Assembly (NCBI GenBank): GCA_036504215.1
Contig: DASXVO010000010.1
Location: forward strand, 1 to 33,927
Length of the DNA: 33,927 bases
From: Vicinamibacterales bacterium
GTDB lineage: Bacteria; Acidobacteriota; Vicinamibacteria; Vicinamibacterales; Fen-181
Reading direction: 5' to 3'
The notes beneath the pieces were generated by a model. It saw only the letters and a program-made list of their open reading frames with translations. It had not been told where the DNA came from and did not search any database. A program made the translations under genes and the position numbers. Of the stretch, positions 18,801 through 31,572 are shown one piece after another (the stretch's first letter is position 1; each line of letters opens with the position of its first letter).

Positions 18801-18889
18801 GGTTCGTCCTCTACGTAGACGAAAACGGGATCAGGACGGTTCACGACCGGTGCCGACGGTGCTCGAGCTGCGGCTGCCGGAGGTGCAGA

Positions 18890-19155
18890 ACGTCCAGCGC
18901 CTTCAGCACGGCAGCTGCAGCACCTCCAGCACCCTCAGCACCGCACCTGCAGCACCTCCAGCACCCCTGGCACCCTCAGCACCGCACCTGCAGCACCTCC
19001 AGCACCCCTGGCACCTTCGGCACCGCACCTGCAGCACCTCCAGCACCCCTGGCACCTTCAGCACCGCACCTGTAGCACCTCCAGCACCCCTGGCACCTTC
19101 GGCACCGCACCTGTAGCACCTGTAGCACCTCCAGCACCCTCAGCACCCGTCGCAC
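18890..19155. repeat. Repeat array with 41-bp higher-order unit (9-mers of GCACC)
   Basis: The region between the divergent phosphatase and acpS genes is an array of 9-bp words starting GCACC (GCACCTGCA, GCACCTCCA, GCACCCCTG, GCACCTTCG). Four 9-mers followed by a lone GCACC make a 41-bp unit; unit starts are visible at 18943, 18984, 19025, 19066 and 19107, exactly 41 bp apart, with imperfect copies on either side. The unit length is not a multiple of three, so the Ala/Pro-rich open frame across it is not a gene. The array stops a few bases before the -10-like sequence of acpS. Confidence 0.93.
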
Positions 19156-19583: not shown

Positions 19584-19829
19584 ATGAAAGACATCATCCT
19601 CGAGTACATCAAGAACGAGTACGTCGACGAGGACGAAGCTGACGAGATCAAGCTGGACGAGAACACGCCTCTCATCAGCAGCGGCATCGTGGACAGTTTC
19701 AGCATGGTGAGCCTGAAGCGGTTCCTCGAGAAGAAGTACGCCATCTCGATTCCCGACGACCAGGCGACGCCCGAGGCGTTCAATACCGTCGCCAGCATCA
19801 TCGAGTTGGTGGGGCGGTTCAAGAAGTAG
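19584..19829 (+). CDS. Acyl carrier protein, dedicated type
   Basis: This 81-residue acidic protein has the ACP four-helix pattern. The phosphopantetheine-accepting serine is Ser38 in GIVDSFSMVSLKRFLEKKY; the sequence is DSF rather than the DSL of the fatty-acid-synthesis ACP, which suggests a specialised carrier. A C-terminal part IPDDQATPEAFNTVASI completes the fold. AAGGAG nine bases upstream supports ATG 19584. It sits between acpS and the kbl-type gene. A related ACP C-terminus survives as a remnant at 28259-28357. Its acyl cargo is unknown. Confidence 0.92.
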   Translation: MKDIILEYIKNEYVDEDEADEIKLDENTPLISSGIVDSFSMVSLKRFLEKKYAISIPDDQATPEAFNTVASIIELVGRFKK

Positions 19830-19951: not shown

Positions 19952-21199
19952 ATGGCTTATCCGACGACCGCGCACGAGGCGTATCGGGCCGAGTTGCAGG
20001 CAATTCACGACAAGGGCATCTTCAAGGAGGAGCGGTACATCCACTCCCCGCAGGCGTCGGGCATTTCCGTGGAGTTCCCGCGCGGTGCGGCGCCGAAGCA
20101 GGTGGTCAATCTCTGCTCGAACAACTATCTGGGACTGTCGAGCCATCCGGACGTGATCGCGGCGGCGCATCGCGGCCTCGACGAGCGCGGGTACGGCATG
20201 TCGAGCGTCCGCTTCATCTGCGGCACGCAGGACCTCCATCGCCAACTCGAGCAGAAGCTCACCGAGTTCCTCGGCACGGAGGACACGATCCTCTTCCCGA
20301 GCTGCATGGACGCGAACGGCGGCGTGTTCGAGGCGGTGTTGAGTGACCAGGACGTGATGATTGCCGATCGCCTCGTGCACGCGAGCATCGTGGACGGCAT
20401 GCGCCTGTGCAAGGCGATGCAGGACACGTACAAGCACGCGGACATGAAGCACCTGGAACAGAAGCTCCAGGAACATCAGGACAAACGCATCCGGCTGATC
20501 ATCACCGACGGCGTCTTCTCCATGGACGGCGACCTCGCACCGCTCGACGAGATCGTCGCACTGGCCGAGAAGTACAACGCGCTGGTGTTCGTCGATGACA
20601 GCCACGCGAGCGGGTTCATGGGCAAGACGGGTCGCGGGGTGCACGAGCACTTCGGCGTGGTCGGCAAGATCGACATCATCACGACCACGCTCGGCAAGGC
20701 GCTGGGGGGCGCGAGCGGCGGCTGCGTGTCCGGGCGCAAGGAGATTGTCGAGCTCTGCAGGCAGAAGGCTCGTCCGTACCTGTTCAGCAACGCCGTGCCT
20801 CCGCCCATCGCGGCGGCGGCGCTGAAGGTGCTCGAGATCATCAGCAGCACCACCGAGCGGCGCGACAAGCTCGCGGCGAACACGAGATTCTGGCGTCAAG
20901 CCCTGCCCGAGGCCGGGTTCGTCATCAAGGAAGGCGACAGCCCGATCGTCCCGATCATGCTGTTCAATGCGAAACTGAGCCAGGACATCGCCCGCGATCT
21001 GTTCCAGGAAGGGATCTACGTCATCGGCTTCTTCTTCCCCGTCGTCGCCGCCGGGCAGGCCCGCATCCGGACGCAGATGTCGGCCGGCCACGACATCCCG
21101 ATGCTGGAGGCCGCCGTCGAATCGCTGAAGAAGGTTGGTTCGAAGTACGGAATCCTGGGGTTGGACAAGAAGGGGATCATCGAGAAGTACGGGCTCTAG
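19952..21199 (+). CDS. kbl: Glycine C-acetyltransferase (2-amino-3-ketobutyrate CoA ligase)
   Basis: The 415-residue protein is an alpha-oxoamine synthase, a PLP enzyme that condenses an acyl thioester with an amino acid. It is very close to E. coli Kbl: FKEERYI, NNYLGLSSHPDVI, FICGTQDLH, HASIVDG, ITDGVFSMDGD, FVDDSHASGFMG and the PLP lysine K249 in TTTLGKALGGASGG. Kbl makes or splits 2-amino-3-ketobutyrate in threonine and glycine metabolism, usually next to threonine dehydrogenase (tdh), which is absent here. Instead the gene follows acpS and an ACP gene, so an acyl-ACP substrate is conceivable, though the residues look like true Kbl. AAAGGA lies eight bases before ATG 19952. An 11-bp stem downstream probably ends the operon. 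Confidence 0.9.
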   Translation: MAYPTTAHEAYRAELQAIHDKGIFKEERYIHSPQASGISVEFPRGAAPKQVVNLCSNNYLGLSSHPDVIAAAHRGLDERGYGMSSVRFICGTQDLHRQLEQKLTEFLGTEDTILFPSCMDANGGVFEAVLSDQDVMIADRLVHASIVDGMRLCKAMQDTYKHADMKHLEQKLQEHQDKRIRLIITDGVFSMDGDLAPLDEIVALAEKYNALVFVDDSHASGFMGKTGRGVHEHFGVVGKIDIITTTLGKALGGASGGCVSGRKEIVELCRQKARPYLFSNAVPPPIAAAALKVLEIISSTTERRDKLAANTRFWRQALPEAGFVIKEGDSPIVPIMLFNAKLSQDIARDLFQEGIYVIGFFFPVVAAGQARIRTQMSAGHDIPMLEAAVESLKKVGSKYGILGLDKKGIIEKYGL

Positions 21200-26363: not shown

Positions 26364-28253
26364 ATGCCTCTCACGACCACCGACGTGCTCGATCGGCTCA
26401 AACAACGCTATCCCGACAAGTTCCTCGGGGAACACGAGGTGTTCTCGCATATCCGGCGTGGCGACCGGATCTTCCTCGGCACGGCGTGTGGCGAGCCGCA
26501 GCACTTGGTCCACGCCCTCACCGACTACGTAAAGACGCACCCGAAGGCGTTCTTCGACGCCGAGCTGATACAGGTGTGGACGCTGGGTGTCGCGCCCTAT
26601 ACCGACGAGCGCCTGAAATCGAACCTCCGTCTGAACGCCTTCTTCATCGGCAACAACACCCGGGCGGCCATCAACAGCGGGCTTGCCGACTACACGCCGA
26701 TCTTCCTGTCCCAGGTGCCGGATCTGTTCCGCCGGAGGCTGATTGCGATCGATGTCGCGCTCATCCAGACGTCGTTGCCCGACAGCCACGGGTTCCTGAG
26801 CCTCGGCGTCAGCGTCGACATCGTGAAGGCGGCCGCTGCCAGCGCGGCAATCGTCGTCGCGCAGGTGAACCCCCAGATGCCCCGGGTGCACGGCGACGGC
26901 TTCGTCCACATCAGCGAGGTCGACTACCTCGTTCCGTTCGACGAACCCCTGCTGGAGTACAGGCCGAACGTGCCCGACGAGATCGCCACGCGCATCGGCA
27001 AGTACGTCGCGCGCATCGTCGAAGACGGCGACACGATCCAGGTGGGATACGGCCGCGTCCCGAATGCCATCATGTCGGCGCTCGGCAAGAAGAAGCGACT
27101 CGGCGTCCACACGGAGTTGCTGACCGACGGCATGGTCGATCTCATCCGCCAGGGGGTCATCGACAACTCGAGGAAGACGGTCAATCGCGGGAAGACCGTC
27201 ACCAGCTTCTGCATGGGCAGCCGCAGCACGTACGACTTCCTCGACGGCAACCCGGCGCTCGAATTCCGGACGATCGACTACACAAACAGCCCGCTCGTCA
27301 TCGCGCAGCACGAGAACATGTGCGCGATCAACAGCGTGCTGGAGATCGACCTCACGGGGCAGGCCACGGCCGAATCGATCGGCCATTCGTTCTACAGCGG
27401 CATCGGCGGGCAGGCCGACTTCATGCGCGGGGCGGTGCTGGCCAAGGGCGGCAAGTCGATCCTCGTCATCCAGTCCACCGCCCAGAACGGCAGCGTCTCT
27501 CGCATCGTCCCGTTCCTGCGTGAAGGGGCGGGCGCGACGCTCAACCGCGGCGATGTCCACTACATCGTGACGGAATTCGGCATCGCCCACATTCACGGCA
27601 AGAACGTGCGCGAGCGGGCGATGGACCTGATTGGCATCGCGCATCCCGCGTTCCGACACCAACTGGTGGAGGAGGCCCGCCGCCTGAAGCTCATCTACGG
27701 CGACCAGGTGTTCGTGCCGGGCGAACGCGGCGAGTACCCCGAGCACCTCGAGGCGCGCAAAGCCACGAAGACAGGGCTCCAGCTGCTGCTGCGCCCGGTG
27801 AAGATCAGCGACGAGCCGCTGGTGAAGGACTTCTTCTATTCGCTGTCGGACCAGAGCATGTATCGGCGGTTCATGACGCCGCGCCGCGACATGCCGCACG
27901 AGAGGCTGCAGGAATTCGTGGCCATCGACTACACGCGCGGGATGGTGATCCTCGCGTGCCTGGATGAGGGCGCACGTTCACCGGTCGTGGGACTGGCTGA
28001 GTACTACATGGAGGAAGACGGCCTGAGCGCGAATGTGGCGTTCGCCGTCCGCGACCAGCACCAGAACAAAGGGGTCGGCACTGCGCTCCTCGCCCACCTG
28101 ACCCAGATCGCCCGCAAGCAGGGGCTCCTCGGATTCACCGCCGAAGTCCTCCGCGAGAACGAGGCGATGCTCCGCGTCTTCGAGAAGATGAAGTTCCCTA
28201 TCGAGACGTCTACCGCCGGCGACGTGTATCGGTTGAAGATCTCGCTCAAATAG
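26364..28253 (+). CDS. Acetyl-CoA hydrolase/CoA-transferase fused to a GNAT acetyltransferase domain
   Basis: This 629-residue fusion has two parts. Residues about 20-460 are an acetyl-CoA hydrolase/4-hydroxybutyrate CoA-transferase-type enzyme (GDRIFLGTACGEP, SPLVIAQHENMCAINS, SFYSGIGGQADFMRGA, and TEFGIAHIHGKNVRERA with the probable catalytic or CoA-site Glu). Residues about 474-629 are a GNAT domain starting LLLRPVKISDEPLVKDFF and containing the acetyl-CoA-binding RDQHQNKGVGTALL turn. The first part moves CoA between carboxylic acids; the second acetylates lysines or small amines. The neighbouring acsA gene suggests a control by acetylation like AcuA-AcsA in Bacillus, but this is inference. 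GAGGAG upstream supports ATG 26364. Confidence 0.88.
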   Translation: MPLTTTDVLDRLKQRYPDKFLGEHEVFSHIRRGDRIFLGTACGEPQHLVHALTDYVKTHPKAFFDAELIQVWTLGVAPYTDERLKSNLRLNAFFIGNNTRAAINSGLADYTPIFLSQVPDLFRRRLIAIDVALIQTSLPDSHGFLSLGVSVDIVKAAAASAAIVVAQVNPQMPRVHGDGFVHISEVDYLVPFDEPLLEYRPNVPDEIATRIGKYVARIVEDGDTIQVGYGRVPNAIMSALGKKKRLGVHTELLTDGMVDLIRQGVIDNSRKTVNRGKTVTSFCMGSRSTYDFLDGNPALEFRTIDYTNSPLVIAQHENMCAINSVLEIDLTGQATAESIGHSFYSGIGGQADFMRGAVLAKGGKSILVIQSTAQNGSVSRIVPFLREGAGATLNRGDVHYIVTEFGIAHIHGKNVRERAMDLIGIAHPAFRHQLVEEARRLKLIYGDQVFVPGERGEYPEHLEARKATKTGLQLLLRPVKISDEPLVKDFFYSLSDQSMYRRFMTPRRDMPHERLQEFVAIDYTRGMVILACLDEGARSPVVGLAEYYMEEDGLSANVAFAVRDQHQNKGVGTALLAHLTQIARKQGLLGFTAEVLRENEAMLRVFEKMKFPIETSTAGDVYRLKISLK

Positions 28254-28258
28254 GGCGC

Positions 28259-28357
28259 CTACGTCTTCCTGGCCACGTGCCGCTCCACCAACCGAATGAT
28301 GCTGGTGACGGTATCGAATGCTCCGGGCGACGCTTCTTCATCCGGAATCGCAAGCCG
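28259..28357 (-). pseudogene. 5'-truncated acyl carrier protein gene
   Basis: On the minus strand, in a frame that no long ORF shows, this reads RLAIPDEEASPGAFDTVTSI, then IRLVERHVARKT and a TAG stop (28259-28261). That matches the last third of the ACP at 19584-19829 (IPDDQATPEAFNTVASI, then IELVGRF). The upstream part, including the DSF/DSL serine, is absent: the frame runs into the GTGC-rich repeat at 28361-28482. The piece lies on the same strand as acsA and just beyond its 3' end. It is therefore a decayed ACP gene. Confidence 0.75.
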
Positions 28358-28360
28358 AGA

Positions 28361-28482
28361 ACGGTGCTGAGTGCCACGTTCAACGTGTGAAGTGCGCGGA
28401 AAGGTGCTCTGTGCGGGGTGCTCCGTGCACTACCCCTTGCGGCGTGCTGGGCACCGAGCATCTGGCACCCAGCACTTAGCAC
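28361..28482. repeat. GTGC-rich degenerate word repeat with terminal hairpin
   Basis: GTGC words (GGTGCTGAGTGCC, GTGTGAAGTGCGCGG, AAGGTGCTCTGTGCGG, GGTGCTCCGTGC) are followed by GCAC words (GGCACCCAGCACTTAGCAC). GTGCTGGG (28444-28451) and CCCAGCAC (28468-28475) form an 8-bp stem that could end transcription from acsA, whose stop is at 28492. The array replaces the missing 5' part of the ACP remnant. Confidence 0.55.
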
Positions 28483-28491
28483 TCTTCCAGA

Positions 28492-30207
28492 TCAATTGTC
28501 GTCCATCGTACTGATATCCCCGGTCGGTAACCCCAGCTCCTGCGCACGCAGCACGCGACGCAGGATCTTGCCGCTGCGCGTCTTCGGGACCTTGTCGACA
28601 AACGCGATCTCCTGCGGCATCGCCAGCGGGGACAACCGCTTGCGCACGTGGTTCATGATACTCAGCTCGAGGTCTTCGCTCGGCGAGAAACCAGGGCGCA
28701 GCGCGACGAACACCTTCACCACTTCCATGTTCACCGGATCGGGCTTGCCGATGGCGGCCGACTCGGCCACGGCCTCGTGTTCGAGCAGCGCGCTCTCGAT
28801 CTCGAACGGTCCGACGAGGTGCCCGCCGGTGTTGATGACATCGTCATCACGGCCGCAGAACCAGAAGTAGCCGTCCTGATCGAGGCTGGCCTGGTCGCCG
28901 CAGATATACCAGCCGTTCAGAAACTTCCCGTAGTAGGTCGGGGCGTTGTTCCAGTAGGTCCGCATCATGCTCGGCCATGGCGGTTTGATCGCGATGAGTC
29001 CCACGTGGCCTGGGCTGGTAATCGGTTCGCCCGATCGCGGGTCGACGATGGCCGCCTCGAGCGCGGGGAAGGGTCGGCCCATGCTGCCGGGTTTGACGGG
29101 CATTCCGGGCAGGTTGGTGACCATGATCGAGCCGGTCTCCGTCTGCCAGAAGGTGTCGTGGAAGTCGAGGCCGAACGCCTCGCGGCCCCAGCGCACGGCC
29201 TCGGGATTGAGCGGTTCGCCAACGCTCGCCATGTGCCGGAGGCTCGAGTGGTCGTGCCGCCTGACCGGATCGAGACCATCCTTCATCAGCATCCGAATGG
29301 CCGTCGGCGCCGTGTACCACACGCTGACGCGGTGCTTCTCGATGGTCGAGTACCAGCGGTCGCTCGAGTAGCCGGCGTCCAGCACGACCTGCGTGACGCC
29401 CATCACCCATGGTCCGATGATGCCGTAACTCGTGCCGGTCACCCATCCCGGGTCCGCGGTGCACCAGTAGATGTCGTCGTCCCTGAGGTCGAGCACGACC
29501 TTCGAGGTCAGGTACTGCGCGAATACGCTGCCGTGCACGTGCAGCGCCCCCTTCGGCTTGCCGGTGGTGCCGCTCGTGTAGTGCAGCACGCTCGGCGTCT
29601 CCGCGTACGCCTTGAACGGCGTGAACGACTCGATTCGGTTCGCCATCATCGAGTAGGCCACCTCGCCGTCGCGGAGCGGCCGGCCATCCTCCTCATGGTC
29701 GATGACGATGATCGTCTTGAGGGAGGGGATTCGCTCGCGCACGCGCCGGACCTTGCCGAGGTGTTTGCGCTGCGTGATGATGGCCGTCGCCGAGCTGTCC
29801 TCCATGCGGGAGTGCAGCGCGTCCTCGCCGAACGCCGAGAACAGCGGTTCGACCACCGCCCCCATCTTGAGGATCCCCATGAAGCCGATGTAGAGCTCCG
29901 GCACACGGTCGAGAAAGAGGCAGACCCGGTCGAGATTCTTGATGCCGAGGCCGCGGAGGAAACTGGCCCACCCATTGGTCAACTGCATCAGATCCTGGTA
30001 GGTGAACTGACGCAGTTCGCCCTCGTGGTTCTCGTGCAGGAGCGCGACTTTGTCACCCCGCCCGGCCTGGACGTGGCGATCGATGCAGATGTGGGCGAGG
30101 TTGATCGGGGCGCCTTCGGTATACCCCAGCTCGCGCTTCGCCAGGTCCCAGGTGATGGTCTTCTTGAGCTCGAGGTAGTCGATGGTGCCAACCAGCGATG
30201 AGTCCAT
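28492..30207 (-). CDS. acsA: Acetyl-CoA synthetase, AcsA type
   Basis: The 571-residue enzyme activates acetate to acetyl-CoA through acetyl-AMP. It follows Bacillus AcsA almost motif for motif: SVLHYTSGTTGKPKGALHVH (the ATP-binding P-loop-like A3 region), DIYWCTADPGWVTGTSYG, WYTAPTAIRMLM, SVGEPLNPEAVRWG, DTFWQTETGSIM, the hinge ...FWFCGRDDDVINTGG.. where enzymes have GR.DD.I, and the C-terminal PKTRSGKILRRVLRAQE with catalytic lysine K547, the residue that acetyltransferases such as AcuA or Pat modify to switch the enzyme off. GGAGGA lies five bases before ATG 30207; an ATG upstream is not needed. It is divergent from the alpha-oxoamine synthase at 30391 and ends next to an ACP remnant. Confidence 0.93.
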   Translation of the reverse strand: MDSSLVGTIDYLELKKTITWDLAKRELGYTEGAPINLAHICIDRHVQAGRGDKVALLHENHEGELRQFTYQDLMQLTNGWASFLRGLGIKNLDRVCLFLDRVPELYIGFMGILKMGAVVEPLFSAFGEDALHSRMEDSSATAIITQRKHLGKVRRVRERIPSLKTIIVIDHEEDGRPLRDGEVAYSMMANRIESFTPFKAYAETPSVLHYTSGTTGKPKGALHVHGSVFAQYLTSKVVLDLRDDDIYWCTADPGWVTGTSYGIIGPWVMGVTQVVLDAGYSSDRWYSTIEKHRVSVWYTAPTAIRMLMKDGLDPVRRHDHSSLRHMASVGEPLNPEAVRWGREAFGLDFHDTFWQTETGSIMVTNLPGMPVKPGSMGRPFPALEAAIVDPRSGEPITSPGHVGLIAIKPPWPSMMRTYWNNAPTYYGKFLNGWYICGDQASLDQDGYFWFCGRDDDVINTGGHLVGPFEIESALLEHEAVAESAAIGKPDPVNMEVVKVFVALRPGFSPSEDLELSIMNHVRKRLSPLAMPQEIAFVDKVPKTRSGKILRRVLRAQELGLPTGDISTMDDN

Positions 30208-30390: not shown

Positions 30391-31572
30391 ATGCGAACCG
30401 ATCCACTTCAGTATCTTGGCCAGGAAGTGCAGGCGCTGCGGGACCAGGGCGGGGCGCTCGACATCCGGATCCTCGGCGGTCCGCAGGCGGCGAAGACCTT
30501 CATCGACGGTCGGAGCGTCGTCAATCTCTCGTCGAACAACTACCTCGGCCTCACGACGCATCCGCGGCTGAAGGCGATGGCGCTCGAGGCGCTCGAGAAA
30601 TGGGGCGTGGGCACCGGTTCGGTCCGGCCGATCGCCGGAACGCTCGAGTTGCACGAGGAACTCGAGCGCCGGCTCGCCGCGTTCAAGCGCACCGAGGCCG
30701 CGGTCGTGTTCCAGAGCGGGTTCACTGCCAACGCCGGAACCGTCTCGGCAGTCCTCACGCGCGAGGATGTCGTCGTGTCGGACGAACTGAACCACGCGAG
30801 CATCATCGATGGCTGCCGTCTCAGCCGCGCGACGATCAAGGTCTTTCCGCACAAGGACGTCGGCGCCGCCCGGAAGACGCTGCGCGAGTTGCCCGCCGGC
30901 CAGCGGAAGCTGCTCATCACAGACGGCGTGTTCAGCATGGACGGCGACCTCGGGCCGCTGCCCGCGCTCTGTGAAGTGGCCGAAGAATCCGGCGCCATCA
31001 TGATGGTGGACGACGCGCACGCGAGCGGGGTGTTCGGCCGCAACGGGCGCGGTACGGTTGACCATTTCGGGGTGCATGGCCGCGTGGACATCCAGGTCGG
31101 CACGCTGTCGAAAGCCATCGGCTCGCTTGGCGGCTACGTGGCCGGCACGCGCGCGCTGATCGATTTCCTCCGCCAGCGCGCCCGCCCGTTCATCTTCTCC
31201 ACATCCCATCCGCCATCGGTCATCGGTGCTTCCCTGGCCGCGCTCGATGTCCTGTTGGAGGAGCCTGAGATCATCGACCGGCTCTGGGCCAACACGCGGT
31301 TCTTCAAGAACGGCTTGCACGCCATCGGCTTCAATACCGGCATGAGCGAGAGCCCCATCACGCCGGTCATGGTGGGCGAGTCGGCGCTGGCGATGAAGTT
31401 CTCGGCGCGGCTCTTCGAGGAGGGCGTCTTCGCCCAGGGTTTGGGCTTCCCCATCGTTCCGCGCGGCAAGGCCCGCCTGCGAACGATCGTCACCGCCGCC
31501 CATACAGAGGAGGAACTTCAGTTCGCCCTGGATGCGTTCAAGCGCGTCGGGATCGAACTCGGCATCGTGTGA
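30391..31572 (+). CDS. Alpha-oxoamine synthase (Kbl/BioF family), second copy
   Basis: The 393-residue PLP enzyme has the family motifs SSNNYLGLTTHPRLK, GTGSVRPIAGTLELHEELE, DELNHASIIDGCRLS, ITDGVFSMDGDLGPLP, VDDAHASGVFGRNGRGTVDHFG, the PLP lysine K241 in VGTLSKAIGSLGGYVAG, and SPITPVMVG. It differs from the kbl at 19952 at the substrate region (GSVRPIAGT instead of SVRFICGT) and may use another acyl thioester or amino acid: glycine C-acetyltransferase, 8-amino-7-oxononanoate synthase and serine palmitoyltransferase all remain possible. No biotin genes are nearby. Its divergent neighbour is acsA, an acyl-CoA-producing ligase, and an ACP remnant lies 2 kb away. AAGGAG supports ATG 30391. Confidence 0.88.
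   Translation: MRTDPLQYLGQEVQALRDQGGALDIRILGGPQAAKTFIDGRSVVNLSSNNYLGLTTHPRLKAMALEALEKWGVGTGSVRPIAGTLELHEELERRLAAFKRTEAAVVFQSGFTANAGTVSAVLTREDVVVSDELNHASIIDGCRLSRATIKVFPHKDVGAARKTLRELPAGQRKLLITDGVFSMDGDLGPLPALCEVAEESGAIMMVDDAHASGVFGRNGRGTVDHFGVHGRVDIQVGTLSKAIGSLGGYVAGTRALIDFLRQRARPFIFSTSHPPSVIGASLAALDVLLEEPEIIDRLWANTRFFKNGLHAIGFNTGMSESPITPVMVGESALAMKFSARLFEEGVFAQGLGFPIVPRGKARLRTIVTAAHTEEELQFALDAFKRVGIELGIV

Follow-up and report, generated by a model that had tools for sequence, protein, structure and literature searches.

Beside the acsA gene of the window (the whole stretch of 33,927 nucleotides that was analysed) lies a short minus-strand reading frame that resembles the end of an ACP, while an intact ACP gene stands elsewhere in the same window, between genes for a holo-ACP synthase (AcpS) and an enzyme of the glycine C-acetyltransferase family (Kbl). 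The question raised by this locus is whether the fragment is what is left of a carrier that once accompanied acsA and, if so, what such a carrier would mean for AcsA and Kbl. The explanation that best accounts for the observations overall, and that is considered very probable, is that the acsA-side ACP is dead, that the operon to which it belonged has been split, and that the surviving carrier would be shared in trans. The features concerned are collected in Table 1.

Table 1. Features of the window that are discussed in the text, in order of position
Feature	Position	Strand	Remark
AcpS, second holo-ACP synthase of the genome	19165..19563	+	belongs to the ACP operon
Intact ACP, Kbl-side copy	19584..19829	+	specialised ACP; paralogue of the remnant
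Kbl, glycine C-acetyltransferase family	19952..21199	+	TIGR01822; ACP-linked Kbl clade
Acetyl-CoA hydrolase/transferase fused to a GNAT domain	26364..28253	+	start codon uncertain
ACP remnant	28259..28357	-	last 32 codons and stop of the acsA-linked ACP
GTGC-rich repetitive filler	28358..28491		no strand; occupies the place of the first two thirds of the ACP gene
acsA, AMP-forming acetate--CoA ligase family	28492..30207	-	PRK04319
AOS2, second alpha-oxoamine synthase	30391..31572	+	TIGR01825; neighbour, outside the ACP operon

The remnant behind acsA

On the minus strand the remnant translates as RLAIPDEEASPGAFDTVTSIIRLVERHVARKT followed by a stop (33 codons including the stop). A six-frame search of its whole own genome with the intact ACP as query recovers it with an E-value of 8.8e-4 (47% over residues 45–78). 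When all 48,160 stop-free 25-residue words in the six frames of the window were scored against the C-terminus of the relatives' ACPs (BLOSUM62), the remnant reached 101; the intact ACP followed with 84, and no chance word exceeded 28. Aligning its DNA with the acsA-linked ACP genes of two relatives, G003 and G004, gives scores of 103 and 109 against shuffled maxima of 39 and 37. Genome search, word scan and DNA alignments thus agree with the earlier note, which had described the last third of an ACP, ending in a stop and cut on its 5' side by a GTGC-rich repeat; the similarity to ACPs, whose absence would have spoken against that description, is significant. Searching with single-sequence Pfam returned nothing for this very short piece, and NCBIfam gave weak ACP matches only (E 0.0057 and 0.021).

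The stop-to-stop frame of the remnant extends over 56 codons (28259–28429) and holds the C-terminal third of an ACP alone. Helix II and the DS motif are missing, and with them the pantetheine serine (S38 in the intact ACP), and no start codon is found in the frame upstream of the homologous part. Lacking both the serine and a start codon, the remnant is dead and cannot give a working ACP. The filler that cuts it on the 5' side is about 130 bases long. Judged from its sequence the remnant is the 3' end of the ACP gene that stood behind acsA, severed by repetitive DNA, and the stub by itself is an ordinary pseudogene. This identity and the split-operon history described below, taken jointly, are regarded as highly probable. 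The hydrolase/transferase–GNAT gene is convergent with the dead ACP and is kept in the other members of the genus. Further repeats occur elsewhere in the window: four near-identical 122-bp tandem repeats with a 96% match lie at the left end of the contig (77–563), and GCACC-type minisatellites with a common 41-bp period and a similar unit are located directly upstream of AcpS (18884–19147) and near the right contig end (33583–33764).

Two kinds of ACP are visible in the window's family when the ACPs of 14 genomes are aligned. The Kbl-side ACPs of the window and of G001, G002 and G005 have IPDDQATPEAFNTVASI; in G003 and G004, where the ACP lies on the acsA side, this is IPDEEASPEAFNTVTSIIALVNRHVAKK. 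The remnant is identical to the acsA-side ACP of G004 at 21 of 25 residues and 60 of 75 bases, and to that of G003 at 21 of 25 residues and 57 of 75 bases. For the window's own intact ACP the figures are 15 residues and 56 bases, and the Kbl-linked ACPs of G001, G002 and G005 also match at 15 of the 25 residues. The remnant has the acsA-side signature EEASP..TVTSII..RHVA.K, which is absent from the 19584 copy. Its differences from G004 number 5, 2 and 8 at codon positions one, two and three, a pattern that, although the numbers are small, would fit protein-level selection during much of the divergence.

These comparisons bear on a different origin for the fragment, namely that it is a partial copy of the 19584 ACP placed beside acsA by a recent duplication, in which case it would be silent on the history of the acsA locus. 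The two sequences lie less than 9 kb apart, share a C-terminal motif and agree in the 56 bases just mentioned. However, the remnant is nearer to the ACPs that follow acsA in G003 and G004, carries their signature, and occupies exactly the position at which both genomes have an intact ACP. This synteny and the closer acsA-linked similarity largely refute a partial copy, which is considered highly improbable.

Probable splitting of an ancestral operon

G003 and G004 belong to the same genus as the window. In both, an intact ACP is found exactly between acsA and the CoA-transferase/GNAT gene, and AcpS runs directly into Kbl with no ACP in between. The proposal that the acsA locus formerly had an ACP, and that relatives might preserve it between the CoA-transferase and acsA genes, is borne out by these two genomes. 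The window, G001 and G002 have their ACP between AcpS and Kbl, with acsA elsewhere and without an intact ACP. The pattern is therefore reciprocal, the acsA-side ACP being kept by G003 and G004 and the Kbl-side ACP by the window, G001 and G002. DNA alignment of the acsA side in G001 and G002 gave no match to ACP remnants above shuffles; a short AFNTVTG-like word occurs in G002. G005 has kept its ACP beside Kbl, with AcpS in the same set; its AcsA is a distant relative only (485 bits, under the family cut-off) in a genome that is 83% complete.

Elsewhere in the order the genes are found together. AcsA, ACP and Kbl stand side by side and point the same way in two further families of the order, f5 and f7 (G010, G012, G022, G032, G034, G041 and G050), and likewise in G006 from the window's own family, and AcpS stands just upstream in four of these eight genomes. 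The simplest history would be a single ancestral operon, AcpS–AcsA–ACP–Kbl. On the line leading to the window's genus and that of G005, a presumed duplication of the ACP was most likely accompanied by a split into AcpS–ACP–Kbl and AcsA–ACP; the ACP comparison extends over about 80 residues, too few to fix which copy is ancestral. Afterwards one of the two ACPs was lost, here the acsA-side and there the Kbl-side copy, and one was kept per genome, a count that missing contigs may affect, as most of the relatives are draft genomes. Since both ACP sites derive from one AcpS–AcsA–ACP–Kbl set, the two ACP–synthase associations of the window, which the earlier note had regarded as independent, are halves of one ancestral operon.

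Distribution and proposed role of the gene set

Scanning one genome per GTDB 220 species with the ACP alignment gave 436 relatives, and the loci of the best 80, picked by ACP sequence alone, were examined. Of these 80, 67 have AcsA encoded no more than 400 bases upstream of the ACP (77 have room) and 75 a Kbl-type enzyme no more than 700 bases downstream (76 have room); 62 loci have both, and AcpS is present in 35. Because of contig ends these neighbour counts are lower bounds. A threonine dehydrogenase lies within about 6 kb in 16 of the 80 (11 of the SDR type and 5 of the zinc type), the SDR-type identity being backed by a separate check. The best 80 loci span over a dozen phyla, with record titles naming Acidobacteria, Aminicenantes, Zixibacteria, WOR-3, Calditrichaeota, Fermentibacter relatives, Delongbacteria, Bacteroidetes, Planctomycetes, Gemmatimonadota, Krumholzibacteria, Armatimonadota, KSB1 and others, and the set is co-directional, often in the order AcpS–AcsA–ACP–Kbl. 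Two of the loci without a directly downstream Kbl are those of G003 and G004, which indicates that the split is peculiar to this group. A search of the open-access literature found no description of the set, which is weak evidence for novelty. In an Acidobacteriota sample the ACP occurs in 57 of 396 genomes, each time in exactly one copy. In G006, which was not among the genomes sampled, there is a further, more distant ACP of this type that is 57% identical (G006:C68:30491-30721; L032 / L062) and adjoins a UDP-GlcNAc 2-epimerase-like gene, not AcsA or Kbl.

The synthase at 30391 (AOS2) had been put forward as a partner of the ACP, and this assignment is not upheld. AOS2 is divergent from acsA in the window's family, and only 6 of the 80 best loci have it or a relative in the neighbourhood of the ACP; it is not part of the f5/f7 operons. 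In a tree of alpha-oxoamine synthases it falls in a different branch from the ACP-linked Kbls. The link was rejected; the conserved neighbours of the ACP are AcsA upstream and Kbl (at 19952 in the window) downstream.

The intact ACP contains a PF00550 PP-binding domain (23.4 bits, cut-off 20.8), with its pantetheine serine encoded at 19695–19697, and the DS motif of the alignment is an invariant GIVDSFSM. It is not of the housekeeping type, reaching about 21 bits with TIGR00517 against a cut-off of 70; the true AcpP of the genome is encoded on another contig and scores 117 bits. Helix II of the intact ACP, SFSMVSLKRFLEKKY, is basic with a net charge of +3, and that of the genome's ordinary ACP, SLDTVELVMAFEEEFG, is acidic. 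The window's genome has two AcpS genes, one in the ACP operon and one elsewhere, and such a second, operon-borne AcpS is found in seven of nine genomes checked (the window's and six of eight others).

Kbl passes TIGR01822 with 570 bits (cut-off 493) and reaches 330 bits or less with serine palmitoyltransferase models, under their cut-offs. In a tree 48 ACP-linked Kbls form one clade (100/98), which leaves out the AOS2 group, the CoA-using reference 7bxp and the second Kbl copies found in these organisms. Seven positions, including R140, K161, H167 and C269, are nearly invariant in this clade and different elsewhere; net charge shows no clear difference between ACP-linked and other Kbls. A second Kbl, 52–56% identical to that of the window, directly follows the ACP-linked one in L117, L119, L130, L144 and L148, which are Delongbacteria and relatives, and in L124. 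Possibly one Kbl of each pair serves the ACP and the other CoA. The window's genome has a threonine dehydrogenase on another contig.

AcsA lies above the PRK04319 cut-off (770 bits against 729) and keeps the small-pocket tryptophan in DTFWQTETG, the residue of the acetate pocket in acetyl-CoA synthetases. Among 82 AcsA motif matches in the fetched loci, some of them counted twice, 75 have this tryptophan and 7 have phenylalanine (DTYF), so that acetate may not be the acyl group in every case. Operon-borne AcsAs of the phenylalanine type, with DTYFQTETG, occur in L142 and in other Aminicenantes-type AcsAs, and perhaps serve a different short acid. The short AcsA is without the CoA-binding loop of the long Acs enzymes; as the solved short AcsA 9g79 also lacks this loop, the CoA-binding residues do not discriminate between CoA and ACP.

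It is proposed that AcpS–AcsA–ACP–Kbl is an alpha-oxoamine synthase system that has a dedicated ACP and whose partners are of the acetate and glycine types. In the window the operon's own AcpS would activate the remaining ACP, which would serve AcsA and Kbl both, in trans. AcsA would place an acetyl group on the thiol of the ACP or remove it from there. Kbl would work with acetyl-ACP, or with the ACP thiol in its free form, and not with CoA when it interconverts glycine plus acetyl and 2-amino-3-oxobutyrate; threonine dehydrogenase would connect this reaction to threonine. The acsA-side copy would then have been dispensable, its part being covered by the Kbl-side copy. The best guess is that the dedicated ACP, common to AcsA and its own clade of Kbl, is an acetyl carrier in threonine/glycine metabolism; threonine dehydrogenase is near a minority of the loci. 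That the carrier replaces CoA for both enzymes is given a little under an even chance by analogy. The wider reading, that the widespread set performs an ACP-bound threonine/glycine–acetyl reaction and that reciprocal loss shows one ACP per genome to be both enough and needed, is advanced tentatively.

Two other roles were weighed. In one, the pathway would be the synthesis of fatty acids, polyketides or lipids: AcsA would load the ACP with acetate or a different short acid as primer, and Kbl, akin to serine palmitoyltransferase in sphingolipids, would be the condensing enzyme that yields an amino-ketone. The trio is indeed laid out like the AasR–AcpR–SPT genes described below, and the seven phenylalanine-type motif matches would suit another acid. 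Most AcsAs nevertheless keep the tryptophan, the Kbl scores favour glycine C-acetyltransferase over any serine palmitoyltransferase model by the figures given above, threonine dehydrogenase genes are recurrent extra neighbours, and ceramide-type genes are absent from the recurrent neighbour families; this role is judged rather unlikely. In the other, AcsA and Kbl would use CoA as usual, and the ACP would only accompany them, passing acetyl groups into or out of some other system, or would regulate them. Both enzymes fall in CoA-using families whose CoA activity is well characterised. Against this stand the AcsA–ACP–Kbl order conserved across a dozen phyla, an AcpS dedicated to the set, the retention of a single ACP and the clade of their own that these Kbls form, which together point to direct use of the ACP, and conventional CoA use with a companion ACP is held to be somewhat less likely again.

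The make-up of the gene set is at odds with the current annotation of its members as 'acetate--CoA ligase' and 'glycine C-acetyltransferase', for these enzymes are tied across distant phyla to a dedicated carrier and often also to a carrier-activating enzyme. If the carrier is used, the co-substrate in the protein names is wrong for many uncultured lineages, and a known amino acid pathway would have a carrier-protein form. The split in the window's genus offers natural evidence that such a carrier can act in trans.

Comparison with known systems

The closest characterised parallel is the AasR–AcpR–SPT system of sphingolipid synthesis in Rhodobacteria. Its special synthetase acylates a special ACP, not CoA, and the synthase takes the acyl group from that ACP (PMC9386255). 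Both systems combine a dedicated acyl-ligase, a small ACP distinct from AcpP and a PLP-dependent alpha-oxoamine synthase. They differ in that the ligase is here of the acetate--CoA ligase family and there a fatty acyl ligase, and in that the synthase is here a glycine C-acetyltransferase and not a serine palmitoyltransferase. AcpS often belongs to the set described here, whose ACP has a basic helix II; AcpRs are reported to keep most of the acidic residues in that helix (PMC9386255). ACP use was tested in the rhodobacterial system and is here a prediction.

With the threonine dehydrogenase–Kbl pathway (2-amino-3-ketobutyrate CoA ligase; 1fc4, 7bxp) the set shares a homologous Kbl (E 3e-137 to 7bxp) and the nearby threonine dehydrogenase genes. 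However, the classical pathway needs neither ACP nor AcsA, and the ACP-linked Kbls form their own clade and travel with both. AcsA similarly resembles the Bacillus-type short AcsA (PRK04319; closest solved structure 9g79) in its score above the cut-off and its acetate-pocket tryptophan, but is ancestrally in one operon with ACP and Kbl.

Finally, SulA, the cysteate acyl-ACP transferase, belongs to the alpha-oxoamine synthases and favours acyl-ACP over acyl-CoA as substrate (PMC9304779), a preference that is proposed here for Kbl. SulA differs in using fatty acyl groups and cysteate, and in having an electropositive groove for an acidic ACP, while the ACP described here has a basic helix II.
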